This document shows positions 30,466 to 51,074 of a stretch of DNA of 64,000 bases, one piece after another. Origin of the DNA: Closterium sp. NIES-65 (Eukaryota > Streptophyta > Zygnematophyceae > Desmidiales > Closteriaceae); assembly GCA_948144175.1 (NCBI GenBank), contig CANXME010002549.1, forward strand, positions 682,001 through 746,000. The letters run 5' to 3'. The notes under the pieces are model-generated. The model made no database searches. It worked only from the letters and a program-made list of their open reading frames with translations, and had not been told where the DNA came from. A program made the position numbers and the translations under genes. Position 1 is the first letter of the stretch, and every line of letters begins with the position of its first letter.

Positions 30466-30674
30466 TGGTATCCATAGCGAAGGTCTCGGGTTCGAATCCC
30501 GGTGTATGCACTTCGGGCATCCCAGTGCGGGGGGGTGTCAGAGGTCCACTGGTGATCCCCGATCGATCCTAGGGAAGGGTTACAGGCACGTTTGCCTGGG
30601 GGGTTATGGGCGCACTGACCCGCTACTGAAACAAGCCCTTTTATCCCAATGGTCTTGTGGTTGGGATTCTGAGA
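30466..30674 (+). repeat. TRIM fragment (PBS-like, internal region, one LTR)
   Basis: Plus-strand relative of the TRIM at 45880-46254. It has a degenerate PBS (TGGTATC...), a perfect B-box-like GGTTCGAATCC (30490-30500), PPT GCGGGGGGGTG, then the TRIM LTR from TGTCAG (30537) to CTGAGA (30674). The 5' LTR is missing, and the internal region is shorter than in the intact copy. It is more diverged than the copy in element B. Confidence 0.82.
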
Positions 30675-30677
30675 GAA

Positions 30678-30723
30678 GGCATCAACCCTAAATACCGTGT
30701 CGCATGTGTTTAGGGTTGATGCC
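30678..30723. repeat. CCCTAAA-type hairpin, copy 2
   Basis: Arms GGCATCAACCCTAAATAC and GTGTTTAGGGTTGATGCC (one mismatch) separated by a 10-base loop, directly beside the TRIM fragment. Confidence 0.75.
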
Positions 30724-31739
30724 TACCCGAGTTTATGTAATCCGAATGGGTTTGATTTTATTTCCACTACGATGTTAATATTGTTGGGATAAAAGTTTTT
30801 TTTTGGGCGATTTAGCTGAAGTATCTGTACTGCCCATTGTGAATTGGCTGACGATCGCTGCTCCCGTGACCCAGGGTGCTAGCGAAATCCGTCAAAACCA
30901 GGCCAGTAGGTGGTGACCTGGCGAGAAGGCCAGACTCGGCCCAGACGTGTGGGTTGCTTCGGGCGAACGTCGTAGGGGCGCGACTCACAAGGCCACTGTA
31001 CAGTACTTGGGAAGCTCGAAACCCAAGGGGGCCAAGACGTTCCGCATCAAGTCCTAACCTGTCCCACTCGTGAGGGTCGTGCGATCGGAACCCATGTTAA
31101 CTTTGTGGGTCCTTGAGCGTCAGAATTGTACAGTAACAGTACTCTCCCGAACACTGCCGTAGCAGCTGGCTGCACGTACAAAATTTCCAGGACGAAAAAA
31201 TTGACGGCGCAACTAGAGCAGCAAATTGTCGCGCCCACACTACCGAAAACAACTCCAATCCGCTCCACCAGGTTACGCCAGGTGTCTACTGAGCGGTGGT
31301 TTCCGCCAGGTTACGGTCGCATAACCGTTTCTTCCGAATGCATGTGATTGGGTGGAAGTTTGCTGTTTGGGTTGTGCGATGGTCGTCAGACCCGTCGCTG
31401 GGCACGTGGGGTGGGTGTGGTTGAATCGGGTTACTGCCACACTGTACACAAAAATCTGCACTTTTGGGGGGCTTGAGCGCGCTTCGCTTTGAGCGAACTT
31501 GCTGTGAACGCCATCTTATCTGTTCTGCGGTGCCAAATGAAGACCTCACCGCCTTCCTTTCCTCCACCACCCGCTCTCTGCTCATCAATCATCTCCTGAA
31601 TCACAGCAGCCTGCTCAGTCACCGTCTCTAATCATGGGATTTCTCGCACCTACATCTGATGCTGCTATATCTTCCATCCTTCTACGAGGATGGGAGTCGC
31701 TGAAAACGAGCGCACCGCACGCGGTTCATGGTTGATTCG

Positions 31740-32778: not shown

Positions 32779-32966
32779 TCCCTTGAGATTCGATTAGCCG
32801 GAATAGCGCAACGGTGGCTTTGCTTATGAGAGTTTCGAAGTTATGGCTTTAGGATTGCTGTCTGCAAGAGTCCTTCCCAGGATCCCCAGTACCGCCACAT
32901 AACAAGTACTGTTAGTAGTATTACGGTTACCAGAAGGTCCAGACTTTTGCTAGTAGTAGGGAAATC

Positions 32967-33971
32967 ATGGCGTCACGCTTTGTCGCATCAACCCACCCGT
33001 TCCATGCCACCTATCCCGTGTACCGCTCGATCCGCGCGGGAGCAGACTTTCCAGACGAGAGCGCCGGCGGGAACTACATGAGAAATTTTGTCAGCGACGA
33101 GAACGATAGCGACGACAGTAGTAACGAGGATAACGTTAAGCACTCCTTAACGATAAAATGCGACGGCAACGAAGACAACGGTAACGAGGACAACAGTAAC
33201 GAGGACAACAGATTATTGGACTTCGAGTGGGCTCGTCACCTCATCGCATCGCAGTGGAACATCCGCCGAATGGGCGTCGTCCCCCAAAAGATGATCACCG
33301 GCGGACAGAGCTTCGCAGCTGTGACGAATGGCGTTGCTGTCACCGATTGTGGCAGAGTCGCTACAGAAGGCTGCTGCGTCACTGCGAAAGGCATCCCCAC
33401 AACTCCCTCCGATGGTGTAAACCTGGGTGGTGCAGTTCGTGTGAAGCAGCTTGTTCCAAAGCAAGATACACGGGGGAAGTTTCCTGGTAGCCGCTGTAAC
33501 GGGGGAGCAGCTGCCTTGATCACAGCGACCCATGCAGCATCAAAGGCGCCACGGCTGGCAACTGCCATGGCGACTGAGAGCCATGGGAGTGCCACTGCTG
33601 GCGGTTGCCGTGGGAGCAACCATGTAAGCTGTAAAGGCGTTGCTTCTGAGCATCACTTGGTGTCTCCTTCCGCAGCTGCTCTTGCTTCTCCCAGTGCGAG
33701 CATGCGTGCGGACGTCAAACCTGGATGCGACAATTTCAAGGGTCGCTGTACCTTACAGCACCAGCACCAGCAGCAACATCAACAGCAGCGGCAGCAGCAG
33801 CACCATCAGCAGCAGCAGCAGCAGCAGCACCACCACCACCACCACCATCAGCGGCAGCAACAACAACAGCAGCAGCAGCAGCAGCAGGAGCAGCAACAGC
33901 AACAGCAGCAGCAGCAGCAGGAGCAGCAGCAGAATCAGCGGCAGCAACAGCAACAGCAGCAGCAGCAGCAG

Positions 33972-34069
<98 letters not shown>

Positions 34070-34385
34070 GCAGCAGCAGCAGCAGCAGCAGCGGAAGCAG
34101 CAGCAGCAGCAGCGGAAGCAGCAGCAGAATCAGCGGCAGCAACAGCAACAGCAGCAGCAGCAGCAGTGGCAGCAGCAGCAGTTGAAGCCGAGCAATCTTT
34201 CTCTCAGTCTTCCAACCACCTGCTCTTCACACATTCACAACACACATGACCACTTCCCTGAGCACAGTGGGGGGAGTGGCAAGGCACACGGTGGGGCAAA
34301 AGCTGTGCACAGTGGGGTAAGTAACCCCTACCATCTGGGGCGCATTGGAACTGTAGCCAGCACACGGCTGAGGCAGCCCACCACC

Positions 34386-34433
<48 letters not shown>

Positions 34434-35867
34434 GGCAGAACGGCAGTATCAAGTGCACCGGCAGATCTCCTCACAACAACAGCTGTCGCAGCAGCCCACC
34501 CCATAGTAGTTACAGCGAAAGCGAAGCCGAGCAAGTTGCAGCAGCAGCGCCAGCAGAAAGGAGGCAATCCTCCCTTCTCCCCTAGACAGCTCGCCTGGGA
34601 GGAGGCTGAGGAGGGGTTTCAGGAATACTTACACCAATCAGCTCGGGTCCAACGCGGCTCACTTCCCGGGCCAGCACCGCTCACCCCACCCAATACGCCC
34701 GTTCTCTCCCCATCGAATCTCGAGACGTCTCAAAACTCCCCGCCCAGTTCGCCTGTTCTCTCCCCGTCGCCGCCGCCCTACCCGCGCACGCATCGCCCCA
34801 TGGGGGTGCGCCGCTGCTCTCACTTCATCCTCCCAGCCAGGTCTCTCAACGACAACCTTCTCACCCACTCTGCGCCGGCAGGTGCTTTCTTGCCCTCCCT
34901 TGCCGAGTGCGAGAATAGCAGAGGGATTAAGAGTAGCAGACAGTGTCAGGTCAGCAGGGAGGTTGAGGATAGCAGAGGGTGCGTGCAACACACGCTTTTG
35001 CACGAAATGAGGCTAGTTGGCGAGCTTAAGCACGGAAGGGGCGCATCTGCATGCCCTGTGAACAGCCCCCGAGCAAGCCGTGTGGTAACTTTGGAGTCGA
35101 TTCAAAAGTCTGCCGTAAATCCAGTAAGCACCCCTCATATCAGCCGGCATGCAGAGCCGTCAAGCCCGCCACTGGTTTCACTATTGAGTCTGCCTTTATC
35201 GAGTCCGAGATTATCGAATCACCGGCAGGCTCGTACTGGCCAGCCGTCTAGTAGGCAGCAGTCAGCTAACCAGGAGCCCAGGAGCCAGCCAGGAGGCCAG
35301 CAGACACACCTGTACAGCGTCTCACCTCCATCCCCGACCAGCTTCACAGCTGCTTTTTGCCGAGGGCTGGACCGAACACAATCTTTCAACATCCCACCTT
35401 CCATGCTGCAGGCGCCCTCAAGCGACACGTCGTCGCCTGTGCTGCATCATTCGCCCGGCCATCCGTGGCAGGATCAGCACACCGGGAGAAGAAGCTTCGA
35501 CTCGGCGTGTAAGTCGCTTGGTCTGCTGCGGGCGCAGGCACCTTCACTTGACATGCCATCGCCCATGCTGCATCATTCGGCGGGCCATCCATGGCAGATC
35601 CAACCCGCTGGGAGAAGAAGTTTTGAATCTGCTCGTGTGTCACTTGGCCTGCATTCCCATGCCAAGCCTGCTTGTTCCAGCTTCAAGCGCACCAGCCGCA
35701 GTAGCAATTCGCTCAGAGTGTGCACTGAGGCTGCTGATAATCAGCCAAGAGGGCGAGGGGACAGCTCTGGAAATAGCAGCATTCGCAGCAGCAGTGATAA
35801 GGGCATGTGCAGTAGCTGTGTTAACAGCAGCAACGGCAGGGGGCTTTTGCAAGGCAGCAGCCACTAG
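32967..35867 (+). CDS. Polyglutamine-rich protein of unknown function (single exon)
   Basis: 966-residue open frame with a good start context (AATCATGGCG), ending at TAG 35865-35867. No catalytic domain recognised. Features in order: acidic Asn/Glu/Asp repeats (NEDN units, residues about 38-80); a mixed region; a long Gln tract with Trp, Arg-Lys and His interruptions (about 265-405) including 30 uninterrupted Gln; a 15-Ala run (about 475); the conserved-looking segment FSPRQLAWEEAEEGFQEYLH near 538; Ser/Pro-rich PNTPVLSP and PPSSPVLSP motifs; and two copies of a 35-40-residue unit (SSPVLHHSPGHPWQ / SPMLHHSAGHPWQ, each followed by GRRSF) near 814-895. The composition suggests a disordered, probably nuclear regulatory protein, but that is inference. 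Neighbours are transposons, so it may be the only host gene here. An intron or alternative start cannot be excluded. Confidence 0.65.
33975..34064 (+). repeat. Pure (CAG)30 microsatellite in coding sequence
   Basis: Ninety bases of uninterrupted CAG encoding Gln, inside a wider impure CAG/CAA tract (about 33760-34180). Flanking blocks around 33925-33980 and 34126-34180 are near-identical, pointing to a past segmental duplication of about 200 bp within the tract. Confidence 0.95.
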
Positions 35868-36214: not shown

Positions 36215-36775
36215 GAATTCTGGTGTTTTTTTGTAGCGAAATAGCCACTAACGCGCATAAACGAACCGTCACAGACGTGCCTGACGAAATCCCCCCTGGA
36301 GAGAATTTCTCCGGTGGCCAATCGGGTGATTCATCCTCTCTAGGGGGGCCTCGAATTACTCGAGTGGCCACGCCAGGGGATTCCTGCTCGCTTTTTTTTC
36401 ACCGGCGCATTACCCTACGAGGCTTTGTAGCCCCGAAATTCCTTATTCGTGCGAGTGGTATCCCTAGGTAGTGTTCCGTTCACCTTAAAATTTCGCCAGG
36501 CTCACGGACGCGAAACTGGCCCGCCCACTGTACAAGAAACCGACCAAAACGTGCATTGACCGGTCAGTTACGGCCAAATGCGCGACCAATGAGCACGCGG
36601 TCAATCTAATTCCGAACGAATCAGCGATCGAGCATATAACTTCGCGATCATATAATCCTATTGACCCGAAGCGAACAGCCACACCCCTAATGCACCCGCA
36701 TGATTCGTCAAAAACATGCGCGGTGCATATGTTGCCATTGAGCGTCCAATCAGGCGCCATCATTGAATTCCCCAT
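36215..36775. repeat. MULE left terminal inverted repeat
   Basis: Imperfect inverted copy of 45165-45800. Strongest blocks: 36299-36340 against about 45620-45662, 36400-36416 against 45518-45534, and the block from 'cgccaggctcacggacgcgaaa' to 'ccaatgagc' (36495-36595). The string GCCATTGAGCGTCCAATCA occurs at about 36733 and again at about 36861. Confidence 0.8.
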
Positions 36776-37331
36776 CAGATACCGAAATGATCGGCCATCA
36801 ATTCGCGATAAACTAAATGACCGCGCGTGATTGGTTTGTATTAATCACAGGATATGCTTTGCCATTGAGCGTCCAATCATCCCCGTCCAAATCAAATGGC
36901 AACCATATATTTTATAGGACCGCGCACTAACAAATATTAGTGCGCATATGATTTGTCCAAGTTTGTGTGCTTAGGGTGCATATACTCTTAAATCCCATAT
37001 ACATATTCTCCCGGAGTACATTTGGTTCGTCACAGCCACTTTCTTGAGTTCTGTTTTGCCGTTATCTCTATATAACAGAGCGATCCCTTTTCATGTAGCA
37101 TGCAGTGGCAAAGGGTTATAATGCTACGCCTATATGTCTATGGGCATGTCAGAATCTACGCATGACTAACAAGGTTTAAGTGGAACGTCTTTATGTTTAT
37201 GGATCAAGCAATTTCATGTTCATCGTGATGTCACAGCAGTTATTGTGTTGCTTGACCAAGGAAGGTATCGATTATGTCGTCCGCCGCCCCTGCAAACGGT
37301 CAGAAAACAATTTCAACAGTATAATGCAACG

Positions 37332-40300
37332 TTAGGTAAATAACGGGCTCTGGTTATGCACAACTCTGACAAAACCAGACATCTCACCTGTTGCTGGCTC
37401 GCTTGCCAGTGTGGAGCCGTGAGACGGGGGGTTGGCATTGTTGGGTGCAGTTGTCATGCTCAAGCTGTACTGGGAATCTGTCATGCCAGCTACCCTAGCC
37501 TGCGCAGTTTGCTCTGAGGGCGGTACTTGTTGGACTTGTGGATGTGCCGTGCTGGGTGCAACGGCTGGTGTTGTGGGTAGGGCATGCAGATGGGGTGCTG
37601 TGTTCTGTGCTGCGACATGGCCAGCAGGGTTGGGTACTGAACGGGCTTGGGGTACCGACATAGGTGCTTGCACCTTGCTGAACGGATGGATAGGGATGTG
37701 GTTGAATGCATACTGCTGGGATGGAAAATGGGGGTTGGGCAGATGGTGGCTCTGGGTGTACGGCTGCCATCCACCATGGTTTAGGGATGCACTCGCCTGT
37801 CCCACGAAAGCGGCAGCTGGCGTGTGGTAGTTGCCGAACGTGGGTCCAGGGTGCTGGTGGGAAAAGGGAGGTGGAGCCTGTGTGTGAACTCCTGCTGACG
37901 CTGGGGTGGAAGGCTCGGGGAGGCTGCTGAGCACTACACGCCAGTTCCTCCACTCCGGCCACCGCTTGGCTTCCACAATCCTCTCAACCCCAATCGAACT
38001 TAGACCCTCCAAGCACCACCTATCCTCCTCGCTCAACTCCACCATCTTAGAACTGGAGATGGACGGTCGGCAGATGTGAGCGGCTGCTCCATAGGCTATT
38101 GCGGCATCCAAGATCTCGGTGTACTGTCCCAGCGCAAGGAACTTGTTATTAGCGCTATCGATGCACAGTCGTGCCGCCCACTTACCTTCCCGTTTGCTTA
38201 TACCTGTGTAACCCGAGCTAGGAGCTCGACCACGCGCCGTGTTGCAACTCGTTGTCCCAGTCCCTGCGCTGTGTGCAGACACCACATTCACATTCGATGC
38301 TGTCACACCATGCCCAACACCCACGGCCTCTCCAGCACCTGTGTTACCATCCGTAGTACCCATCAAGCCTCCAGCACCTGCATCATGCACCCTCGCTTTT
38401 TCATTGTCACTCCTCGCACCGTCAGCCATATCCCCCTCCACACCACCTTCACGCACACTGACATTCACTGCACCCGTCTCAACGTCAACCACAGGACCCT
38501 CACCATGTGCACCTCCAATACTGTCATGTGTGCCACCATTGTCCCCACCCATGACTACCACAGGTGCCGGGGCACCAGGTCCACCGTCCGCCGCCACATC
38601 ACCATGCCCCTCCCCTACAGCGGCAGAGTCAACACCATGATGCGGAGTACGATCAAGCATCAGCTCCCGCAATCGCCTCTCGAGCTTAGCAATAGCCATC
38701 GCCTGACTCTCGTTGCGAACCTCCAACCGATGCATCCGTTCTGCCATCTCCGCTATCCACTCCCTATCCTCCACCTCGTCACCAATCACATCGACCTCAG
38801 GTGGTTTCCTTATCTCATTGCCACAAGGGATCTCATGCCGTGTTGTCGTGAGCTTGCCGATCAGCGGACCCTCTGCAAGAGCGCACACATCATCCCGTAA
38901 CCCACGTCGGTACGCTAATGGGCTCATGCTGAACCGCACCCCATTCTCAGCACCTTCGAAGCACGCCTCCACAAGCGCATGAATGTACTGGCAGACGAAG
39001 ATGCCGCAGTAAAAAACGTTCTGCTGCAGAGGCATCAGCCACGCCTGCAATACACAATAGGCACATGCAGCGTAAAGAATAGCGGACAGGCGTGACCACA
39101 GTGCATCATTTGTTAAACGGGGTTTGTTGAATGTACTATGTCACAAGCGCACCGTGCATAGCTGAACACCCTGTACGCTATAGCAACATGCACATAAGAT
39201 GGCAACACTTAGCACCCGAGCAACATACAAATGAGAGCGTTCTAGACTGGGCATTATAATGAGCGAGAAAGCAGCATCGTGCTGAAGGGTTCACCATCCG
39301 CCTGGTTGCACCATGTTTTTAGGGTTGCAATAATAACATGGATGAACAAACGTCACGACAAGCGAACTACTCACCAACACACCTCCATGACGTGCGGCTT
39401 GAATCTTCCAAGCCGAGCTTTCATCTCCTCTATTATGCGCTTCCCATGCTCCTTCTCGAAGGCCAAGCCTAGCAAGCTGTGAGGGGGCTGTGAGAAAGCA
39501 AGAATGAAGAAGGGGTTTGCACTAGCAGCAGTTGGCATACATATAGGAAACCCTAATTGGGTTGTACTCGCTATAGAGTACCCTAGTACAGGCTAGACAA
39601 TTATAACATTCTGACACACCCCCATAGCCAAAGTGGGGTGTAATCAGCACAATGAGCAAGCAGGCATAGAGCAGGTTCACAAGGACAAGCAAAGCTAGAG
39701 GCATTCACAACGGGCAAGTGAGGAGGAGGAGGCGAGACTGTAAGAGGAGAGGAGATAGGAGGCGACGGCTGAAGCTGCAGACACACGGGCAACAGGAGTC
39801 ACACTGGCACAGCGGCTACCGGAACAGCGCCTCGGACTACTGGAGTAACTGGCTCCGCGGCTAAGACGAGCGGCATGAGCAACGGACCCACGGGCGACTG
39901 GCGCAGCTGGCTACGACTGGGCTACCGGAGCAGCGCCCCGGACTACTGGTGCTGCTGACGACACGACGACAGCCTCCGTTCAACCTCCCCCAACTATCCC
40001 ACCCCCCTTTCACACACTCCTTGCTGCACCCCTAGCTCCACTCCCACGTCAACCCCCCTTTGCACACACCCCTTGCTGCACCCTAGGTTCACTCACACCC
40101 CACCCCCTAGCACCACTCCGTCGACTCCCACACACCCACCCCCCTCAGCGGCAGCTGCAGCAGTGGGAGACAGAGGAGGAGGAGGATCAGGGGAGACCAC
40201 ACACCCGCCACCCCCTACTCGCCACCCCCAAACCCTAACACAGGGCAGGGCGGGATGGCGGGTAGGGAGGTTAAGGGGGGGGGGGGGGGGGGGGAAGGGG

Positions 40301-42316
40301 GGGGCCGACGCGCGGCCTTCCAGGGCGCCAAAGCAGGCGGCAGAAGGGGCGACGCTCGTCCCCGCCCCCCAGGTCGCCCCTCCCGTAGCCTGTCAAGGCG
40401 ACCTGAGGGGGCCGCATGCGGCCTCCCAGGGAGCCGCGACGGGCGACGGGAAAAGAGGGGGGGGGCGGTGCACGTGCCCCCGGTGCGCCGCGACAGGCGA
40501 CGGAGCATGGCCGGGGCGGGGCCGGGGCAGGGTCGAGGCAAGGCCGAAAGGGGCGGCGACGGGGCTGCAAGTGGCTGCAACGGGGCCGCTGGAGGCGGCG
40601 ACGGGGCCGTTAGGGGCGGCGACGGGGCCGCAAGGGGCGGCGACGGGGCCGCTGGAGGCGGCGACGGGGCCGATAGGGGCGGCGACGGGGCCGCGAAGGG
40701 GCCGCGAGGAGCCTGGAAGGGCGGCGACGGGCCGCTAGGGGCGGCGACGAGGCCGCGAAGGGGCGGCGACGAGGCCGCTGGAGGCGGCGACGGGGCCGAT
40801 AGGGGCGGCGACGGGGCCGCGAAGGGGCCGCGAGGGGCCTGGAAGGGCGGCGACGGGCCGCTAGGGGCGGCGACGGGGCCGCGAAGGGGCAGCGACTAGG
40901 CCGCTGGAGGCGGCGACGGGGCCGATAGGGGCGGCGACGGGGCCGCGAAGGGGCCGCGAGGGGCCTGGAAGGGTGGCGACGGGCCGCTAGGGGCGGCGAC
41001 GGGGCCGCGAAGGGGCGGCGACGGGGCCGCGAAGGGGCCGCGAGGGGCCGAGAAGGGCGGCGACGGGGCCGCAAGGGGTGGCGACGGGGCCGCTAAGGGT
41101 CGCGCGAGGGGCACGCCACGGGGCGTGCAGCACACAGAGTAGTAGCGGAAGCATTTGGGTGGGCCCACAGGCCAGGAGCGTAAATGCTCTGATAGCATGT
41201 GAGAAAGCAAGAATGAAGAAGGGGTTTGCCCTAGCAGCAGTTAGCATACATATAGGAAACCCTAATTGGGTTGTACTCGCTATAGAGTACCCCACTGCAG
41301 GCTAGACAATTATAACATTCTGACAGGGGCCGCGTTTGTCAAGCAAAAAGGCGGAGTACAGCTGTAATGAACGAAACAGAAGCGTGCACTGCAATGATTG
41401 ATGTCTAGGTTTTAGGGAATGGGTGTACGCCACCACCAACGGACACGTACTTGGTTATGTTCTTGAATGCATTGCCCCCCACAGCATGCATCCCCAGGGA
41501 GTCGTACAGCAGCAACCACGCAGGCTGGGTGGCAGTGTCCTCGTCGAGTGGTAGAGTTACTACTCCAGGATTGACGACAATCATCACGCTGAAATGTAAC
41601 CTGCATTGACAATACATTACATACCTTGTGTCACGGGTTAGGCAACACAACAACAAACGCCATATGCGTGAATGCAATACCAATGACACAATATCTTCGC
41701 ACTAACCCGCCAAATATTGGCGTGGCCAGATAGTCGTAGCTGAAGATGGACGGTCCGGCGTCGCCTCTTGCGATCTTGCCCCGTGAGCAGAAGCACTCGT
41801 AACTCTGACTGTCCAACGCAAGCCACGTCTTGCCGTTGCTCAACTTGGGCCGGCGTATATTCAGCACTCTGCGGTGATAGCGGCAATAAGTAAAGCACAA
41901 CGAGTGGAGTCGGAAAGGCGATAAAGATGACACGGTGGTTCACCACATGATTGAACATGCCCATTGCTTGGCACTTACATGTTGTGAAAGTCGATGAGAG
42001 GTTGCGTGATCGGCTGATCATCGGTGATGTGCAGTGCGTCGGCCATCGTGATAACGGCCATCATTCCGTGATGATCGCGAATGGCATTGGTGGGAAAAAA
42101 AGGATGCGTGTACTTGCCCGCCGTAGCTCTAGATTTCTCGTGAGTATTTAGGAAAGGGATTTTAGTATCTCCGAGGATTTTTGCGATGAGGTCGTCGAGC
42201 GGAGTCTCTACCAAAGGCTTGTCAAACGCCTGCTCTACGCCATAATCGTGCGGGGCTACCTTCTTCAAGACCACCAGCTCAGATGGCGTGGCGCATCGCT
42301 CCTGTTTATTCGTCAC
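37332..42316 (-). CDS. MULE-borne ULP1-like Cys protease with coiled coil and AP2-like domain
   Basis: Spliced minus-strand gene. Hand-read exons: open from about 42316 to 41979; 41868-41707; 41600-41451; 39476-39383; 39044-37332 (stop TAA). Introns 41978-41869, 41706-41601, 41450-39477 (contains element K) and 39382-39045 have GT-AG ends and phases that keep the frame. C48/ULP1 motifs appear only after joining: LHFSVMIVVNPG (His, codon 41596-41594), LLLYDSLGMH (Asp, 41503-41501), PLQQNVFYCGIFVC (Gln and catalytic Cys, 39008-39006). Canonical ULP1 has DCG where this reads YCG. After the protease come a coiled coil (EMAERMHRLEVRNESQ..), a Gly/Val-rich stretch, an AP2/ERF-like segment (GYTGISKREGKWAARL, LALGQYTEILDAAIAYGAAA; near 38240-38090) and a Pro/His/Gln-rich tail. 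ULP1 enzymes cleave SUMO-like modifiers; the AP2-like part suggests DNA binding. The 5' end is unresolved, and it may be joined to the transposase. Confidence 0.72.
39489..39616 (-). repeat. 3' LTR of element K
   Basis: 128 bp; minus strand TGTCAGAATG...CTTTCTCACA. Almost identical to 41198-41325 (differences such as CTAGTACAGG/CACTGCAGG and GTTGG/GTTAG). Confidence 0.92.
40240..41110 (-). repeat. GC-rich leader repeat of element K
   Basis: Tandem degenerate units of GGGGCGGCGACGGGGCCG(C) arranged in higher-order blocks of about 125 bp (for example around 40620, 40745, 40870, 40995). Long open frames here, in several frames on both strands, are composition artefacts. Confidence 0.85.
41198..41325 (-). 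repeat. 5' LTR of element K
   Basis: 128 bp, adjacent to the PBS complement 'gctctgatagca' at 41186-41197. Confidence 0.92.
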
Positions 42317-44880
42317 GTTTGCTTGGCCCGATCCAATCCCACATGCCCGCCATTACATAAGATACCGGCAAGATGCAGATCTTCTTAATGGCGTTGTTTA
42401 TAGACTCCACCATCTGGCTGCTGTAGATGCCAAACCGACATGTGGGGGCATAACACGGTGCCCATTGCTTGATGAGTACTGTGATTTTTTCCTCCTCTTG
42501 TTTCTCGGTCCATCCTGGCCCGTGCGCACAATAATGGCCACCCCTTCCTCCATAATGTCACTGTCCACACGCTCAGCATCCGCATTGCCCAAGCCCCCCA
42601 ATCCCGTTTCTACAGTGTGGTTGACGTCCGTGGCCTCTGCGGCGTCGTTGGCCCGACCCATGTCTGTCGTAACACCCTGCTGCGATGTTGGCTGACGCGC
42701 GCTTTGGCTCCCTTGCGTTGGCAGCCGTGCTACTGGTGTTCCGGCTCGTTCCCACCCTCTTGCACCTGCCTCTCTTGCATTCCGCCTTCCCCTAATAATT
42801 TCCATCCGCCGTTGGCGTCTCATGGCCGCTTGTTGCGCTATTGTGGTGGATAGAGGATGAGTTGCAGTATTGGTGGATTGGGAGCCGCGACCCATGTCTG
42901 CACGCTCCTCATCCTCATCAGGCTCCGGCTCCTCCCCGCAGCTGATTTGGCTCCCATCCTCCACGTCAAAGTGCTCCTTGAACACTTCTTCTGTGGTATC
43001 TGCCTCGGCCTTACTATCGGATATGGTTGTAGCTCTATCTCTTGCATTCTCGCCTGCTAAAGAAGGGTGCTCAGACGTGGTTGCTGTGACACGCTCAAGT
43101 GGATGCACGTTGTCAGCAGCCGTAGATTGAGGCTGCATGTCACTAGGGCGGTCACGGGTAAGATTTGCAGTTGGCATGGGTCCGAACCCATGGTCCCTAT
43201 GGGGCGTCTGAGATGGTTGCTGCTGAGATGGCTGCTGCTGGGATGATGGCTGTAGGGATGAATGCTGATGTACCCTTCTCTGATTTGACGGTGTTTGCTG
43301 AGATGGTGGCTGCTGAAATGGTCGTTGCTCAGATGGTGCCTGCTGAGAAGGTGCCTGCTGTGATGGTGCCTGCTGCTGTCCACTACGACCACTCCTACTT
43401 TGCCGCCGCACTTCCATCCTTGCCATTCTCGCTCTTCTTGCGGCACCCGTGCGGCTTCCTAACCCATCCCCTGCCCCTGGCTCCCATGCACGCTGGTTGG
43501 CCTCGCGTCCGCCTCGGGTCTGCTGCACACTGGTCTCCTCGACCCCAAAGAGATAGTTAGCCATTGCAGCACATTCGGCTCGGCATCTCCTCACGAGTTT
43601 GCCAAACTTCCGCTTGGTGCGGCAGTTGGCGAGCTTCTTAAAGAGTTCGGAGGCGTTAGGGCCAAACTTGAGCACATTCTGCTCCAAGTGCCAGCTGCAA
43701 AAGTAGTGGGGAAACTGGGATGGGAAAACTTCTTTAACCACCGGTATTAACCCCTTATCACGATCGATGATGAGGGAGGCATCCTGGGTGTCCGGCCACG
43801 ACGGAAAATGCTTCAACAAGTTCGCACAAAACCACATCCAACTATCTCTGTTCTCACTCTCGCACAGGCTGTAAGCAAGTGGAACAAGCTGGTTATTTCC
43901 ATCCTTAGCAGCTGCTACCAAGAGCGTGGCCCGCTGCGCACGAATGAGAAATGTACCATCCATACCAATGACTGGTCGACAAAACCTTAGAGCTGTTCGT
44001 GACGCCGATGGGGCGGCAAAAGCTCGGAAGAAAGCGTGATCCTTTGTCACCAGGTCGAGCATTGAATCTGGGTCTATCTCTTTGAACTGTTCCAAGACTC
44101 GCGGAATGTAGCGAAAAGAAGTTTTCCAATCTCCAAAACGTTCCTTCAGCATCTTTTCCTTTAGCCTGCAATAACAGACGACGGTGTACAAGAAAACAAA
44201 AGCAGGTAGCAGAAACATGAAGTGGATGGGGTGATTAAGAACGTGCATGTAACAATGGCGGTCATGTGGATCGAACGTTTGGAAACATACCGCCATGATT
44301 GCTGATAATTTATATCAGGACCACCAGTAGACGCAATCTGTTCCTTGTACGTCCCGGGAGGGTGATGTGGTGCAGCTTGGACAAGATTGCCGTGATGACG
44401 CTGCAGATATGACACTTTATTTGTCGTGTGTTTCACGTAGCGGTCCCGATCAACGACTTAGCAGCAATGGGATGATGGGGCGGACAGTTTGTCAACACGC
44501 CAAAACCCACCCACTTCGTCAGTAGAGTACTCACACCGCCACCGGCACGCAGGTTTACGACGCTCATGTTTACTCATGCATATGGCCTGGGCTCTGTTTC
44601 ACCTACTCCTCGTAACCCTAAAACCGAAGTTGTAAGCTACCGAATAGTCCTCTAGTGCTTCGTACAAATTTTTTTTAGAGGAGTATAGTTGACCTTCACA
44701 CAACGGTGCTCGATCGTCTATGGTGATTTGTGGCTATGGGGCCTCGTCGATGACCATTTCCCGCAGCAACACACGGTACATATCACTTTGTTTGGGCTCT
44801 CCAGTTCCAACGAAGCAAAACTCTGTGTCGTCATCGCCTGAGTCGGACTCTGTGTTAGAAGTATAAGACATCGAACTCAT
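42306..44880 (-). CDS. MULE transposase (mudrA-like, DDE), spliced
   Basis: Catalyses cut-and-paste of the MULE. Probable first exon from ATG 44880 (MSSMSYTSNTESDSGDDD, acidic). Further N-terminal coding near 44560-44470 (FWRVDKLSAPSSHCC) and 44457-44291 (RYVKHTTNKVSYLQRHHGN ... NYQQSWR). Intron 44290-44166 joins SWR to LKEKMLKERFGDWKTSF, the typical MULE 'AWRAKE..GDWE' block. Exon 44165-43531 has first Asp (VIGMDGTFLI), second Asp (SLIIDRDKG) and the C..H signature (YFCSWHLEQN). Intron 43530-42479 then joins YLFGVEET to LIKQWAPCYAPTCRFGIYSS, followed by QMVESINNAIKK, whose Glu is the third catalytic residue (canonical TSN.AES.N); stop TAA 42308-42306. All three acidic residues are therefore present. 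N-terminal exon limits are uncertain. It overlaps the 5' end of the ULP1 frame. Confidence 0.78.
42479..43530 (-). other. Transposase intron that stays open (Gln-rich, NLS-bearing ORF)
   Basis: If this intron is retained, the frame continues uninterrupted from the transposase exon to a stop at 42398, giving 632 codons in all from 44296. The retained part encodes Arg-rich, Gln/Ser-rich (QQAPSQQAPSQQ), acidic (EEPEPDEDEERAD) and basic (RNKRRKKSQ) stretches. Removing it restores the third catalytic Glu in frame. Either an alternative product or a relic; not decidable from sequence alone. Confidence 0.5.
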
Positions 44881-45164
44881 TGCGGCTAATATGAACGTTC
44901 TAACCGTAGGACCTCCTAGATGAACCTCCTTTAAGGACCTAACTGCCCTAATGAAAGTCTAAGGTAGATGTGAACCCTAAAACGACGAGAGGAAATGGTG
45001 TGAGCAATCTGTAGCATACAGATCAAGGGTTAAAGCGCGGGAAGTTGAAAAGGGCGTACCAAACCAGTTTGAGAGCGTTAATTCGAACCTTTTGTGTGAG
45101 AGTATTTAGTATATGATTGGCGGGATCATATAGTGAATTGTGTTTAATGAACGCGTTCAAATAT

Positions 45165-45800
45165 GATCGGCAATCCATAATGCTTGCGCCTGATTGGACA
45201 CGCAGTGGCAACAAATGCACCGCTCTATCTCCTGACCAATCGAGCGCGGTCGTTTCTGCTGTGTCGGTTCATTTCGGGTCAAATGCAGTATATGATCGCG
45301 AAGTCATATGCTCGATCGCTGTTTGGATGTTAATTAGATTGACCGAGCGCTCATTGGTCGCGCATTTGGCCGAAACTGACCGGTCAATGTACTGTTGGTC
45401 GGTTTCTTGTACAGTGAGCGGGCCACTTTCGCGTCCGTGAGCCTGGCGAAAATTTCGGGTGCGGAACAGAACGGAACACTACCTCGAATGAGGAATTTCG
45501 GGGCTACAAAGCCCCTAAGGGTAATGCGCCGGTGAAAAAAAAGCGAGAAGGAATCCCCTGGCATGGCCACTCGAATAATTATCACCGAATTTGGTGGCCA
45601 CTCGAGTAATTCGAGGCCCCTTAAGAGAGGATGATTCACCCGATTGGCCACTGGAGAAATTCTCCGGCCATTATCTCCGATACTCAGATTTTGCCTGAGC
45701 GCGTTCTCAGGTGTAATCACCAACAGAAACACAGTTTCTCGATATAGTGTAAAGCTATTTCGGCTCATGTTTGTATACAGTCACAAAAAAAAAGGAATTC
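45165..45800. repeat. MULE right terminal inverted repeat
   Basis: Inverted counterpart of 36215-36775, including TGGTCGCGCATTTGGCC, GCCTGGCGAAAATTTCG and AGGGTAATGCGCCGGTG. It has an extra duplicated stretch around 45560-45605 (GGCCACTCGA.TAATT twice) not seen on the left. It probably contains the transposase promoter. Confidence 0.8.
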
Positions 45801-45879
45801 TAGCACTTGCAATAAATAAATATAATGCCCGTAGCAAACCTATATGATTTCCGTGAAGGATCAACCCTAAATACCGAAA

Positions 45880-46254
45880 TGTCAGAATCCCAACCACTAG
45901 ACCATTGGGATAAAAGGGCTTGTTTCAGTAGCGGGTCAGTGCGCCCATAACCCCCCAGGCGAACGCGCCTATAACCCTCTCCGGGATCAATCGGGCATCC
46001 ACAGTGCAGATCTACTGACACCCCCCCACACTGGGAGGCCCAGGACTAAGCACAGCGGCAGCGGCCTACATGTGCATACACCGGGAATCGAACCCGAGAT
46101 CGCTCTGATACCATGTCAGAATCCCAACCACTAGACCATTGGGATAAAAGGGCTTGTTTCAGTAGCGGGTCAGTGCGCCCATAACCCCCCAGGCGAACGC
46201 GCTTGTAACCCTCTCCGGGATCAATCGGGCATCCACAGTGCAGATCTACTGACA
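45880..46254 (-). mobile_element. Intact TRIM (375 bp)
   Basis: Two 141-bp LTRs (45880-46020 and 46114-46254) surround a 93-bp interior. On the minus strand: LTR starting TGTCAGTAGATC and ending CTGACA, PBS TGGTATCAGAGC (46113-46102), short interior, PPT GTGGGGGGGTG, second LTR. An exact CGAAA target duplication flanks it (45875-45879, 46255-46259). The LTRs differ only at a few bases. No coding capacity. Its TGTCAG start and CA end match the copia LTRs of the window, so copia integrase could act on it. It interrupts a CCCTAAA-type half hairpin. Confidence 0.93.
46084..46138 (-). promoter_or_regulatory. Pol III-like A and B boxes across the TRIM LTR/PBS junction
   Basis: On the minus strand TGGTCTAGTGG (46138-46128, at the 3' end of the 5' LTR) matches a tRNA A box, and GGTTCGATTCC (46094-46084, just after the PBS) matches the B box. 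The gap is 33 bp, as in tRNA genes. An acceptor stem cannot be formed, so this is not a tRNA gene. Promoter activity is inferred only from the motifs. Confidence 0.5.
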
Positions 46255-46292
46255 CGAAAGCCTCCCAATATTCTAGAAAACATATTGCAACC

Positions 46293-46423
46293 TGTCAGAA
46301 CATATAGCTTACTTGTTTGTGTAGGCTATAGTGGGGTATCCCATAGGGGGTACAACACATTAGGGTTTCCTATTTGTATTCACTTCACTTCATAGTCATT
46401 CATCCTCGTTCTTTGTTTTCACA
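46293..46423 (+). repeat. 5' LTR of element N
   Basis: 131 bp, TGTCAGAACATATAG...TTTTCACA. Differs from the 3' LTR at two positions (ACAAC/ACAGC and TTCCTATT/TTCCGATT). Confidence 0.95.
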
Positions 46424-46435
46424 TGGAATCAGAGC

Positions 46436-47318
46436 AGGTTCCCTCCTAGGGACTGCTTCTAGGGCCCACCGAACCGCGCCCCGAGGCGCGTTTTTTTTAG
46501 CGACCCGTCGTGTCGCCCCTAGGGGCCCGTTGCGCCGCCCTTCCCCTAGCGGCTCCGCCGCCCTTCCCTAGCGGCCCCGCCGCCCTTCGATCGCGGCCCC
46601 GCCGCCCTCTGCTACGCGGCCCCACCGCCGCCCTTCGATCGCGGCCCCGCCGCCCTCGGCTACGCGGCCCCGCCGCCCTCTGCCACGCGGCCCCGCCGCC
46701 CTCTGATACGCGGCCCCGCCGCCCTTCGATTGCGGCCCCGCCGCCCTCTACTACGCGGCCCCGCCGCCCTCTGCTACGCGGCCCCGCCGCCCTCTACTAC
46801 GCGGCCCCGCCGCCCTCTGCTACGCGGCCCCGCCGCCCTCTGCTACGCGGCCCCGCCGCCCTTCGATCGCGGCCCCGCCGCCCTCTGCTACGCGGCCCCG
46901 CCGCCCTCTGCTACGCGGCCCCGCCGCCCTCTGCTACGCGGCCCCGCCGCCCTCTTCGGTCGCGGCCCCGCCGCCCTCTGCTACGCGGCCCCGCCGCCCT
47001 CTGCTACGCGGCCCCGCCGAGCCGCCCAGCATCAGCCGAGCCGCCCAGCAGCAGCCGAGCCGCCGCCGAGCCGCCGCCGCCTGAGCCGCCGCCCGGGCCA
47101 CCTGAGCCGCCGCCCGAGCCGCCGCTGAGCTGCGGCCGAGCCGCCGCCCGAGCAGCCCGAGCCGCCCGTGCCGCCCGAGCCGCCCGAGCCGCCCGAGCCG
47201 CCCGAGCCGCCCGAGCCGCCCGAGCCGCCTGAGGAGCCGTGCTGCTGTTCCTGAGCTGTGTTCCTCTGCTGCTGACCTACCCGACTCTCCCAGCCCGGTG
47301 AGACTTTCAGCTGCTGCC
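46436..47318 (+). repeat. GC-rich leader minisatellite of element N
   Basis: Tandem GCCCTCTGCTACGCGGCCCC-type units (about 46600-47015), then GCCGCCCGA 9-mers (47150-47230). It precedes the gag ATG at 47319. The short repeats encode Ala/Arg or Pro/Arg runs in open frames that are not conserved as protein. Confidence 0.87.
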
Positions 47319-50300
47319 ATGGCCACCCCCAATGTTCTTACTTTTGACGCTGAGGGGAGGGCCATTGACTTTGCCGTCTGGATTGAAGACCTGCAGCTGT
47401 ACTTACTGTGTGATGCGATAGATGAGGTCTCTCTCTTTGACTTTGTCTCTGGCGCTGTCCCTGCCCCACCTGCTGATGCTGACTCTGCCGTTCGCTCCAA
47501 GTGGGCGACCCGCGATGCTGCTGCACGTCTTGCTGTGCGTCGCCACCTCCCTTCCTCTGAGCGTGCCCACTTTAGTCAGTGCAAGACCGCTCAGGCCTTG
47601 TACGACGCTGTAGTTGCACGCTACTCCTCCCCTTCCTCCGCTACCCTTAGCTGCCTCATGCTACCGTTTCTCTTCCCTGACCTCGCTTCCTTTCCCACTG
47701 TCGCTGACCTCGTTACCCACCTCCGTGCTAGTGACACCCGCTACCGCGCTGCCCTTCCTGCTGAGTTCCGCGCTGCGAACCCTCCTCCCATGTACATCAC
47801 TCTCTACTTTCTCGTCACCCGTCTCCCTGAGTCCCTTCGTGTCGTTAGGGACCAGTTTCTCTCTGTCTGTCCCACCACTCTCACTGTCGACCTCCTTGAG
47901 GAGTCCCTGCTAGCGGCTGAGAAGAGTATTGTCGCTGTAGGGGCCTCTCGGGGTGACCCTCGCACCCCCATCTTTGAGGGGTGTGGTCCTTCCCCCCTGC
48001 TGCCCTCTGTCGCCTCTGCCGCTGCGGCCGACCTCACTGGTTTTGAGTCGGTCGGCGCGGCGTCTGCCCCCAGCGGCAGACGCCGCTCTGGCAAGGGCAA
48101 GGGGGGCAAGGGAGCGGGTGGAGCTAGAGGGGGCGGTGGAGGAGGCGGTGGGGGTGGCGGGGGGAGTGGGGGTGGCGGTGGGGGTGGTGGCGGGAGTGGA
48201 GGTACTGGTGGCGGCGGTGGAGGCGGAGGTGGCGGCGGAGGTGGTAGCGGAGGAGGCGGTGGGAGCGGTGGGAGCGACGGTCCTGGTGGGGGAGGTGGAG
48301 GTGGAGACGGGGGTGGCGGTGGAGGCGGGGGTGGCGGTGGAGGCGGGGGTCGGAGTGGCTCGTCCCAGCGGAGCAGCTCTAGGGGTGGTCAGCGCCAGCA
48401 GCAGCAGCAGCAGCAGCAGCCGCAGCAGCAGCCACAGCAGCAGCACCGCTCTCGCATCGTCCACGCCCCTCAGCAGCTCCGTGAGTGGTACTCGCAGCGT
48501 CAGCGTGGTGGTGCGCTTGGTCCTTGCCCCTACGTTCTTCGCACCGGTGACCGTGCACGGGAGAGGTGTGGAGGCGCCCACACAGCCCGCCGCTGCTTTG
48601 GCCGCCTGACTGACGCCTGGCGTCAGCAGTTTCCGGAGGCAGCTGAGATCCCCCGCTGGGGAGAGCTGTCTAGGGCTGGTGTAGCTATTTATGATCTTGA
48701 TTTTGATGATATTCTCTCTGCTATGTATGCTGCGATTGGTAGTGATGAGGATGACTGTTACCGGTGTTTCCCGCCCGACCCGGGCATTGGTACTGCCGCG
48801 TCAGGTACTAGTGAGGCTGCTGCTCTAGGTGCCAGTGCGTCTGTGCTCTCAGGTGCTGGTGAGTCTGCCCTCTCAGGTACTGTGTCGGCTTCGGCCTCTC
48901 ACACCTTCACCCTTGACTCTGGAGCGTCTCGCTCCTTCTTTAGGGACCGCACCACTCTCACGCCGCTGAGTCGGCCGGTTGCGGTGTCCCTGGCTGACCC
49001 CTCTGGGGGGCCTGTCCTGTCTCGCTTCTCCACTGTCCTCCCGTGTCCGGCGGCCCCCTCTGGCACCCTGACTGGTCTTTACCTCCCCTCGTTCTTGACG
49101 AACTTGGTGAGTGGTGCTGACCTCCAGGATGCGGGTGTCCACCAGTTCACCCCTGCTCGTCAGCGGGTGACCCACTGCACGGAGGCGGATACAGGTCGCC
49201 ACCTGGCTACGTTTACACGTCGGCCAGGGTCGAGCCTGTACACACTGACCACTGCTTCTCCTCCAGGTGCTGAGTCTGGTCAGGTGTTTGCTGCAGCGTC
49301 CAGGTCTGGTCCTGAGTCTGCCCCCTGCTCGTGCCGTCGTCTGTCTCACGAGACCCTCCTCTGGCACCACCGCCTTGGCCACCCCTCTCTGCTTCGGCTC
49401 AGAGGCATGGCCTCGCGAGTCCTTGAGTCTGGTCTTCCCCGGTCTCTCCCTCCCCTTCCTCCGGGCCCTGGCCCCACCTGTGTCCCCTGTGTCGAGGGGC
49501 GCCAGCGTGCTGCCCCTCACTCCTCCCAGTTTCCTCCGACAGAGGCCCCGTTGCAGACGCTTCACATGGACGTGTGGGGCCCAGCCCGCGTCCGTGGACA
49601 GGGCCAGGAGCGCTACTTCCTGCTGGTGGTTGACGACTACTCGCGTTACACCACAGTCTTCCCCTTCCGCAGCAAGGGTGAGGTCACTGAGGTGTTGATC
49701 GACTGGATCCGCGCAGCTCGTCTCCAGCTTCGGAGGAGCTTTGGCTCTGACTTCCCTGTTTTGCGTCTGCACTCGGACAGAGGCGGAGAGTTCTCCTCTG
49801 GCCTCCTGAGTGCCTACTGTCGTGCGCGAGGCATCCGTCAGACCTTCACGCTTCCGGACTCACCACAGCAGAATGGGATTGCTGAGCGCCGCATTGGCAT
49901 GGTCATGGACGTCGCTCGTACGTCCATGATGCATGCGGCTGCTCCCCATTTTCTGTGGCCGTTTGCGGTCAGTTACGCTGCGCACCAGATCAACCTCCAC
50001 CCCAGAGTCTCTCGACCCGAGACCTCCCCAGCCCTGCAGTGGACGGGGAAGGTTGGCAATGCGTCGGCGTTCCGGGTCTGGGGATCTCGGGCGTTTGTTC
50101 GCGACCTGTCTGCGGACAAGCTGTCCCCTCGTGCTTCTCCCTGCGTCTTCCTGGGGTTCCCCCCCGACGCCCCTGGGTGGCAGTTTTACCACCCCTCCTC
50201 TCGACGTGTTCTGTCCTCCCAGGACGTCACGTTCGACGAGTCGGTACCCTACTACCGCCTCTTCCCCTACCGCACTCCGTCCCTCCCCCCGCCCCCGCTC

Positions 50301-51074
50301 TTCTTGGTACCAGGTCCCCCCCCGGTAGTCCCCCTCCCCCCTCAGGGTCCTGCCCCTTCAGGTGTGTCCCAGGTAGACGCGGTCGAGCCTGTCGAGGTCA
50401 CTGGTGACTCTGGTGCTGCTGCGGGAGCTGAGCCTGGGGGTGCGGAGTCTGGGGGTGCTGAGCCTGGAGGTGCCGAGTCTGGGGGTGCTGAGCCTGGGGG
50501 TGCTGAGCCTGGAGGTGCCGAGTCTGGGGGTGCTGTGCCTGGGGGTGCTGAGCCTGGGGGTGCTGAGCCTGGGGGTGCTGAGCCTGGGGGTGCTGTGCCT
50601 GGGGGTGCTGTGTCTAGGGGTGCTGAGCCTGGAGGTGCTGTGCCTTGGGGTGCTTCGTCTCGCCTGGAGCCACTCTCCCCACAGGAGCTGCGTGAGTGGT
50701 TTGCCAGGCGCTGGAGGCGTGCTGCTGGTGCTGGTGGTTCTTCGGCTGCAGAGGGTACTGCTGCTGCGCGCCCCGCCGGTGCTCGTATGTGGGTGCTGGA
50801 GCTGCTGAGTCTGAGAGTTCTCCTGGAGCTGGTCCTGCTGAGGGTGTTGGCGCTGAGCCTGCCGTTGGCGGTCCGACTGACAGTGCTCCTGGTGCTGCGG
50901 CTGGAGGTTCTGGAGCTTCTGGTGGTGCTGCTGGAGGTGCTGCTGGAGTGGGTGCACCTGCCGGGGCTGCTGGTGCTGTTCCTGCTGTTTCTAGCGTCGC
51001 CGCGCGGCCCCGACCGTACTTCGTTCCGCTCCTGCAGCAGGTTCTTGGTCTTACACCTCCTCCTCCTCCCTTAG
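47319..51074 (+). CDS. Copia Gag-protease-integrase polyprotein (element N)
   Basis: Starts at ATG 47319 (MATPNVLTF, context GCCATGGCC); the open frame extends a few codons upstream. Residues about 1-235: UBN2-like Gag body (RRHLPSSERAHF, MYITLYFLVTRLPESL). 263-347: Gly-rich tract; then a Gln run. 403-427: Cys/His segment standing where a zinc knuckle is expected. 533: protease Asp in LDSGASRSFFRD. 680-730: integrase HHCC (WHHRLGHPS..CVPCVEG). Integrase catalytic Asp751, Asp820 and Glu856 are spaced as DD35E. Then the C-terminal integrase region and GAEPG-repeat linker. After about codon 1155 the frame is wrong (Leu-rich) and stops at 51074, because of a frameshift around 50786-50793. Gag packages RNA, the protease matures the polyprotein, and integrase inserts cDNA. 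Confidence 0.93.
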   Translation: MATPNVLTFDAEGRAIDFAVWIEDLQLYLLCDAIDEVSLFDFVSGAVPAPPADADSAVRSKWATRDAAARLAVRRHLPSSERAHFSQCKTAQALYDAVVARYSSPSSATLSCLMLPFLFPDLASFPTVADLVTHLRASDTRYRAALPAEFRAANPPPMYITLYFLVTRLPESLRVVRDQFLSVCPTTLTVDLLEESLLAAEKSIVAVGASRGDPRTPIFEGCGPSPLLPSVASAAAADLTGFESVGAASAPSGRRRSGKGKGGKGAGGARGGGGGGGGGGGGSGGGGGGGGGSGGTGGGGGGGGGGGGGSGGGGGSGGSDGPGGGGGGGDGGGGGGGGGGGGGGRSGSSQRSSSRGGQRQQQQQQQQPQQQPQQQHRSRIVHAPQQLREWYSQRQRGGALGPCPYVLRTGDRARERCGGAHTARRCFGRLTDAWRQQFPEAAEIPRWGELSRAGVAIYDLDFDDILSAMYAAIGSDEDDCYRCFPPDPGIGTAASGTSEAAALGASASVLSGAGESALSGTVSASASHTFTLDSGASRSFFRDRTTLTPLSRPVAVSLADPSGGPVLSRFSTVLPCPAAPSGTLTGLYLPSFLTNLVSGADLQDAGVHQFTPARQRVTHCTEADTGRHLATFTRRPGSSLYTLTTASPPGAESGQVFAAASRSGPESAPCSCRRLSHETLLWHHRLGHPSLLRLRGMASRVLESGLPRSLPPLPPGPGPTCVPCVEGRQRAAPHSSQFPPTEAPLQTLHMDVWGPARVRGQGQERYFLLVVDDYSRYTTVFPFRSKGEVTEVLIDWIRAARLQLRRSFGSDFPVLRLHSDRGGEFSSGLLSAYCRARGIRQTFTLPDSPQQNGIAERRIGMVMDVARTSMMHAAAPHFLWPFAVSYAAHQINLHPRVSRPETSPALQWTGKVGNASAFRVWGSRAFVRDLSADKLSPRASPCVFLGFPPDAPGWQFYHPSSRRVLSSQDVTFDESVPYYRLFPYRTPSLPPPPLFLVPGPPPVVPLPPQGPAPSGVSQVDAVEPVEVTGDSGAAAGAEPGGAESGGAEPGGAESGGAEPGGAEPGGAESGGAVPGGAEPGGAEPGGAEPGGAVPGGAVSRGAEPGGAVPWGASSRLEPLSPQELREWFARRWRRAAGAGGSSAAEGTAAARPAGARMWVLELLSLRVLLELVLLRVLALSLPLAVRLTVLLVLRLEVLELLVVLLEVLLEWVHLPGLLVLFLLFLASPRGPDRTSFRSCSRFLVLHLLLLP

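Follow-up and report, generated by a model that had tools for sequence, protein, structure and literature searches.

The window, by which we mean the whole 64,000-nucleotide stretch of Closterium sp. NIES-65 contig CANXME010002549.1 that was analysed, contains a Mutator-like element (MULE) carrying a spliced gene that joins a ULP1-type (C48) protease to an AP2-like domain. This fusion is real and chance is excluded, whereas the window copy is itself a relic that has undergone an internal deletion and lost the start of the gene. The element and its gene are laid out as follows.

36301..45664, minus strand: MULE hosting the ULP1-AP2 gene, from alignment of its two terminal inverted repeat (TIR) arms
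36301-36826 and 45120-45664: long TIRs of this MULE, from alignment of both arms
42398..44314, minus strand: MULE transposase open reading frame (ORF), DDE part (PF10551, E 1.1e-15)
42331..42333, minus strand: internal deletion junction, about 2.6-2.7 kb lost relative to sister copies, from copy comparison
41979..42316, minus strand: exon 1 remnant, N-terminal region with the start codon lost (splice and sister copies)
41707..41868, minus strand: exon 2 (splice and sister copies)
41451..41600, minus strand: exon 3, with catalytic His 41596-41594 and Asp 41503-41501 (direct reading, splice and sister copies)
39489..41325, minus strand: small long terminal repeat (LTR) element within intron 3; target-site duplication (TSD) GCCCC at 41330-41326 and 39488-39484, found by eye
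39383..39476, minus strand: exon 4 (splice and sister copies)
37388..39044, minus strand: exon 5, with the Gln/Cys box (39026-39006), helical linker, AP2-like domain and Pro-rich tail in one frame
37929..38216, minus strand: AP2-like domain and conserved W..W..W extension, aligned as a 96-residue segment
37240..37289, minus strand: exon 6, ending ..GAADDIIDTFLGQATQ stop; the preceding intron 5 (GT..AG) recurs in sister copies

Structure of the ULP1-AP2 gene

The four introns given in a preliminary description of this locus (41978-41869, 41706-41601, 41450-39477 and 39382-39045) all run from GT to AG, and their removal leaves an open splice of 818 codons in which the ULP1 residues stand at the codons assigned to them: His (CAT, 41596-41594), Asp (GAC, 41503-41501), Gln (CAG, 39026-39024) and Cys (TGC, 39008-39006). 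The window gene therefore carries the C48 residues His, Asp and Cys, with the oxyanion Gln, in order; in its Cys box the DCG motif reads YCG, Tyr replacing the Asp that precedes the catalytic Cys. Across the 11 sister copies tested the splice sites recur, the losses being donor 1 in L017, acceptor 3 in L025 and acceptor 4 in L018. Because the Gln/Cys codons and the AP2-like stretch share the single uninterrupted exon 39044-37388, their linkage is independent of the splice calls and the two domains cannot belong to different genes, which rules out separate genes joined by wrong splicing.

Both ends first proposed for the gene had to be moved. The stop at 37332 reflects read-through into a fifth intron (37387-37290), and the last exon is 37289-37240, while 42316 is no gene start: the apparent 5' exon begins at the deletion junction (42333/42331), and the start codon used in sister copies falls within the stretch deleted here. 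A coiled coil, also proposed, is plausible only, given a weak match in sister copies to ADIP, a coiled-coil family (E 0.15-0.19).

The deletion lies between transposase and protease and took the end of the former and the start of the latter, truncating the downstream coding part of the window transposase ORF. The missing stretch is present in L012, L021, L026, L028 and other copies; unlike the deletion-shortened window ORF, the transposase ORF of L021 extends beyond the DDE part and contains motifs that we take to be SWIM- and CCHC-like zinc fingers. The identical deletion occurs in L009, which may be an allele of the window copy, with 99-100% identity to it over nearly all aligned sequence. 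Intron 3 is long because the small LTR element inserted there (LTRs at about 41325-41198 and 39616-39489), and its empty site is seen in L011, L012, L015 and L016.

Relatives, domain identity and genomic spread

The comparison set comprised twenty copies of this MULE family, ten of them spliced. L021, L026 and L028 form a young subfamily, 99% identical over more than 9.1 kb. The L028 element measures 9682 bp; its TIRs are about 520 bp long and it is flanked by a perfect 9-bp TSD, TTGTGGCCG. In the alignment a 9-bp TSD, ACACAGAAT, was also recognised by eye for L021, beside one altered end base. L028 shows long TIRs together with a 9-bp TSD; the window copy has the TIRs and the PF10551 transposase domain, and a 9-bp TSD sought at its ends was not found. 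Frames are intact in six of the ten spliced copies, at 896 aa (L021, L022, L027 and L028), 891 aa (L025) and 860 aa (L012), and are broken by stops at position 749 in L026, 84 in L016 and 28 in L017. A 1.6 kb insertion in exon 1 would account for the absence of the usual start from L023, and the L020 sequence includes 1371 N.

That a ULP1 plus AP2 module rides on a MULE is strongly supported through these relatives, although the window protein alone is sub-threshold for C48 (13.5 bits against the PF02902 cut-off of 20.7), has no Pfam AP2 match, and in a single-sequence search reached 1gcc at E 0.18 and SENP8 at E 0.13. The PF02902 cut-off is passed by the spliced products of L021 (27.1 bits, 4.5e-6) and L012 (26.3 bits, 8.1e-6), and a distant ORF, that of L029, has C48 (2.8e-5) and AP2 (0.0044) in one frame. 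Among nine ORFs, Pfam recognised C48 in eight and AP2 in four (best 6e-7), and the Q, N, C and G of the Cys box are invariant across the nine when aligned. Judged by sequence, C48 and MULE membership are thus assigned through relatives.

When a profile of 11 AP2 segments was compared with the PDB, all five matches at E up to 1 were AP2/ERF proteins (1.7e-10 to 5.6e-4), including WRI1 (1.7e-10), TEM1 (7.9e-6) and AtERF1 (2.4e-4), which rules out a chance resemblance of an Ala-rich stretch. The PF00847 cut-off of 33.3 bits is not reached, distant ORFs scoring 17.7-24.3 and loci of this group up to 28.0 in the genome search, and we describe the segment as AP2-like by profile, below the curated Pfam threshold; a structure model of the window segment, made from the single sequence without relatives, had a pLDDT (predicted local distance difference test) of 41. 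In every aligned AP2 segment three invariant Trp follow the AP2 core and lie outside it. The match to TEM1 runs beyond the core into this extension, as would be expected if an AP2 protein resembling TEM1 had been the source.

Between L021 and L012, the ratio of nonsynonymous to synonymous substitution rates (dN/dS) was 0.12 (0.07-0.19) in the ULP1 core and 0.17 (0.08-0.33) in AP2; the linker (0.41) and the tail (0.60) had higher values, and comparisons of L022 and of L025 with L012 agreed with this. These values indicate purifying selection on both domains in this MULE family.

The 874 Mb assembly (2400 contigs) is eukaryotic by its introns and transposon types, and its 98 GRAS matches (best 1.6e-54) are consistent with a zygnematophyte or land-plant host. 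It was searched genome-wide with Pfam C48, for which 150 of 339 candidates were scored, and with Pfam AP2, for which 150 of 288 were scored and 148 of the 150 rows used after two overlapping rows were dropped. The C48 matches listed number 76, a locus count that may include alleles twice since matches often occur in near-identical pairs on different contigs. In 60 of the 76 an AP2 match follows on the same strand, 595-847 bp downstream; among the matches listed, no C48-AP2 pair lying within 5 kb has the reverse order or opposite strands. Five of the 16 remaining loci were inspected, and three of these have AP2 (in the same frame in L053 and L054, and in the same frame behind one stop in L055), bringing the loci with an AP2 segment just downstream to at least 63 of 76. 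L057 resembles a host SENP exon without AP2. L056:1-1683 (minus strand) holds a C48 ORF (1e-5) with no AP2 in its 561 aa and a zf-C4H2 match (1.6e-5) below that family's cut-off, and may represent a ULP1 lineage with another partner.

Distances to transposases were counted over all 149 MULE and 133 Plavaka rows with a limit of 15 kb. Among the matches listed, 22 of 29 close AP2 matches have a MULE transposase within this distance, each upstream on the same strand, as do 5 of 119 distant AP2 matches, each downstream on the opposite strand. L052 is a case of the latter arrangement: its MULE transposase (1.1e-14) converges on a ULP1-AP2 ORF whose AP2 part scores 1.1e-21 with our own AP2 profile and whose C48 part, at 13.9 bits, is below the cut-off. 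In L029, a Plavaka transposase (1.1e-10) diverges from the ULP1-AP2 ORF, and L049 and L050 match pieces of L029 at 50-78% (tblastn) in the same arrangement. The carrier assignments of L049, L050 and L051 are based on tblastn to L029; Pfam gave no match on three L049 ORFs and two L051 ORFs, and only Plavaka at 0.052 on L050. Systematic Plavaka linkage was not seen, since a listed Plavaka transposase lies inside the 15 kb limit for only 2 of the 119 distant AP2 matches, where it converges from a distance of 9.1 kb, in a list for which 123 of 1397 candidates were scored and which omits the L029 copy. The carriers among the loci examined are thus MULEs of two lineages and Plavaka elements. These two MULE lineages come together in a tree of 15 ORFs (support 0.94), a grouping made weak by very long branches. 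DDE_1-like ORFs also lie near ULP1-AP2 genes at L029:9132-9899 (PF03184, 1.1e-6) and L051:3182-4201 (a 26% match to L029 only), and a DDE_1-type element is perhaps a third kind of carrier, which the ORF matches make suggestive only. Relatives were also sought in viral contigs, where none of 32 pattern-matching stretches was confirmed by tblastn.

One account of such a gene is that MULEs passively carry functionless fragments of captured host genes in the manner of Pack-MULEs, and gene pieces are indeed often captured by MULEs according to excerpts of a review (PMC13317346). Purifying selection on both domains makes passive capture unlikely. Also against it are the six of ten assembled copies whose frames are intact, and an architecture that at least 63 of the 76 C48 loci share across deep divergence; the account is already largely contradicted, and we consider it very improbable. 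The occurrence of the fusion on more than one transposon kind in this genome suggests that transposons use it to aim the protease at particular DNA.

Several further features lie on the contig. A second ULP1-AP2 locus, at contig positions 664608-665759 (about 16-17 kb before the window start), has an AP2 score and a 481-aa frame identical to those of the L029 locus. Within the window, short inverted repeats that are 93-96% alike in parts flank the MULE (30484-30739 and 45841-46294), an open frame of 982 codons with long Gln tracts that stem from CAG-type repeats adjoins it (32919-35867, plus strand), and a 1322-codon open frame (47106-51074, plus strand) resembles, by eye, a Copia-type polyprotein.

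A candidate palindromic target and the proposed role of the fusion

Apart from poly-A, the commonest noncoding 8-mers in two subfamilies are parts of one palindrome, ATGACCGGTCAT. We counted ATGACCGG eight times in the L028 element and ACCGGTCA eight times in L012, the largest shuffle value being 4 in each case; because every palindrome scores on both strands, the 8-mer counts are raised, in the shuffles as well. GACCGGTC ranks first of the 256 palindromic 8-mers in both L012 and the L028 element, where it occurs four times each, and it occurs twice in the window element, once in each TIR; neither the remaining 54.6 kb of the window nor 71.4 kb of other-family loci contains it. The palindrome is located in the spacer between transposase and ULP1, and one subfamily has it in the terminal repeats too. 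This spacer is mostly without BLASTN match between subfamilies, yet the sites lie at similar distances from the transposase stop. The window sites are as follows.

36557..36566: palindrome TGACCGGTCA, within the TIR 36301-36826
45377..45386: palindrome TGACCGGTCA, within the TIR 45120-45664

Given these observations, we propose that the ULP1-AP2 protein may act as a deSUMOylase tethered to DNA, where it would oppose the silencing of the transposon that carries it. It would resemble in this VANC, the sequence-specific anti-silencing protein of Arabidopsis VANDAL elements, but would use another DNA-binding module. The accessory MULE gene encodes a ULP1-type (C48) cysteine protease, a helical linker and an AP2/ERF-type domain; the AP2 part would bind noncoding sites of the element, perhaps ATGACCGGTCAT, and the protease so brought to the element would strip SUMO from silencing factors or chromatin, such that the element would stay expressible while the remaining genome was spared. 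We advance this tentatively, at a confidence somewhat short of even.

Several observations weigh against this proposal. The palindrome was found only in this MULE family and not in the loci of other families, and within this family the sequence compared is without it in four copies of twenty (L013, L015, L016 and L017). As a 10-mer it has a count of 4 in L012, no more than the largest value from 20 shuffles. Tandem Repeats Finder (TRF; one row in L021, two in L012) revealed no tandem palindrome arrays, unlike VANC targets, although one L012 row (25-bp unit, 2.4 copies) contains the palindrome; most of the tandem arrays of L016 lie beyond the gene blocks, in positions that suggest they may be parts of inserted retroelements. 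The palindrome might instead be used by the transposase or by a host factor, and the substrate of the protease could be another ubiquitin-like protein rather than SUMO. DNA binding is itself not assured, as the window AP2 segment is without several residues that we take to be the DNA contacts of AtERF1. The close pair L021 and L025 gave dN/dS values of 0.39 and 0.47, with wide intervals that make it little informative. Lastly, a Pfam search at E up to 10, in which HMMER filters drop most weak matches, found neither DUF1985 nor DUF287 in residues 1-441 of L021 or 1-429 of L012, and homology to VANC is therefore not established.

The position of the palindrome bears on a second possibility, that the protein assists transposition instead of affecting silencing, by binding the element and removing SUMO from the transposase or from repair factors. 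TGACCGGTCA lies in both TIRs of the window element and also near the 3' end of L012, unrelated transposases accompany the fusion, and Ginger1 transposases are fused to ULP1 and OTU domains for which a role in transposition has been proposed, as excerpts of PMC2836005 state. In L028, however, three GACCGGTC sites are in the internal spacer and one in the transposase ORF, with none in the TIRs. We regard such a transposition cofactor as somewhat unlikely. Less likely still is that the AP2-like part has lost DNA binding and serves for dimerisation or other protein-protein contacts, with targeting left to the transposase or chromatin: several presumed canonical contact residues are changed in the window family and the extension with its three invariant Trp lies outside the AP2 core, but the AP2 segment is under purifying selection and the AP2 sequences of distant families look more canonical.

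The anti-silencing proposal could extend beyond this family. An old effector of this kind might be common to streptophyte MULE and Plavaka elements (perhaps also to a DDE_1-type), its AP2 part aiming a SUMO protease at the DNA of each family, with ATGACCGGTCAT as the target in this one, and would be an independent counterpart of VANC; this wider form we hold to be rather doubtful. If true, a shared AP2-aimed effector would help to explain the recurrence of ULP1 proteases on transposons. The fusion offers a concrete handle on the question, with a candidate binding site, a mutable active site and a family-specific silencing effect to measure.

Comparison with known transposon systems

ULP1-type proteases have already been reported on MULE, CACTA and Ginger transposons, with references back to Hoen 2006 in the excerpted literature, and the precise function of transposon Ulp1 is still called unknown in the excerpts of the 2026 review (PMC13317346). 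No report of a ULP1-AP2 fusion on a transposon was found by title or abstract in the open-licence literature: the term AP2 is absent from PMC2836005, and the relevant terms were not found in PMC6446971 and PMC12062965. ULP1 on transposons is thus known, while its fusion to AP2 is apparently unreported in the literature searched.

The preliminary description had cited ULP1-carrying MULEs of the Kaonashi (KI) type. These and the window element are MULEs with a ULP1 domain, but KI-MULEs are described as non-TIR elements with ULP in reverse orientation to mudrA (excerpts of PMC2528002), whereas the window family has long TIRs of about 520 bp, the same orientation for both genes and an added AP2; by these sequence features, the window element is not a Kaonashi MULE as described. 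For the ULP1-MULEs of melon and rice, ULP is reported in direct orientation, and in melon in TIR-MULEs as well (PMC2528002, citing van Leeuwen 2007); that excerpt reports ULP in either orientation and a TIR-MULE with ULP from melon, and mentions no AP2 domain. Grapevine CACTA elements and Ginger1 likewise associate ULP1 with several transposon superfamilies, with the difference that in Ginger1 it is fused to the transposase itself (excerpts of PMC2528002 and PMC2836005). The AP2/ERF transcription factors WRI1, TEM1 and AtERF1 share the AP2 domain by profile, with the TEM1 match passing the AP2 core, but the AP2 segment of the window family is fused to a protease and borne on a transposon.

A proposed parallel in mode of work is VANC/KIU of Arabidopsis VANDAL, likewise a MULE accessory gene; its product is a DNA-targeted protein, in some cases said to carry Ulp1, and is associated with short noncoding motifs. 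The anti-silencing precedent is described in the excerpts of PMC5735166 and PMC10398659; in the former, VANC21 binds a short motif, the VANC domains are DUF1985 and DUF287, and Ulp1 goes unmentioned, while the excerpted review PMC13317346 states that some VANC genes carry Ulp1. Compared with the short motifs of VANC, GACCGGTC is enriched in the noncoding DNA of the element but not in tandem arrays. VANDAL elements are non-TIR according to the same review excerpts and VANC has DUF1985 and DUF287, whereas the window family has long TIRs, no tandem motif array found, and an AP2-type module in place of the VANC domains.

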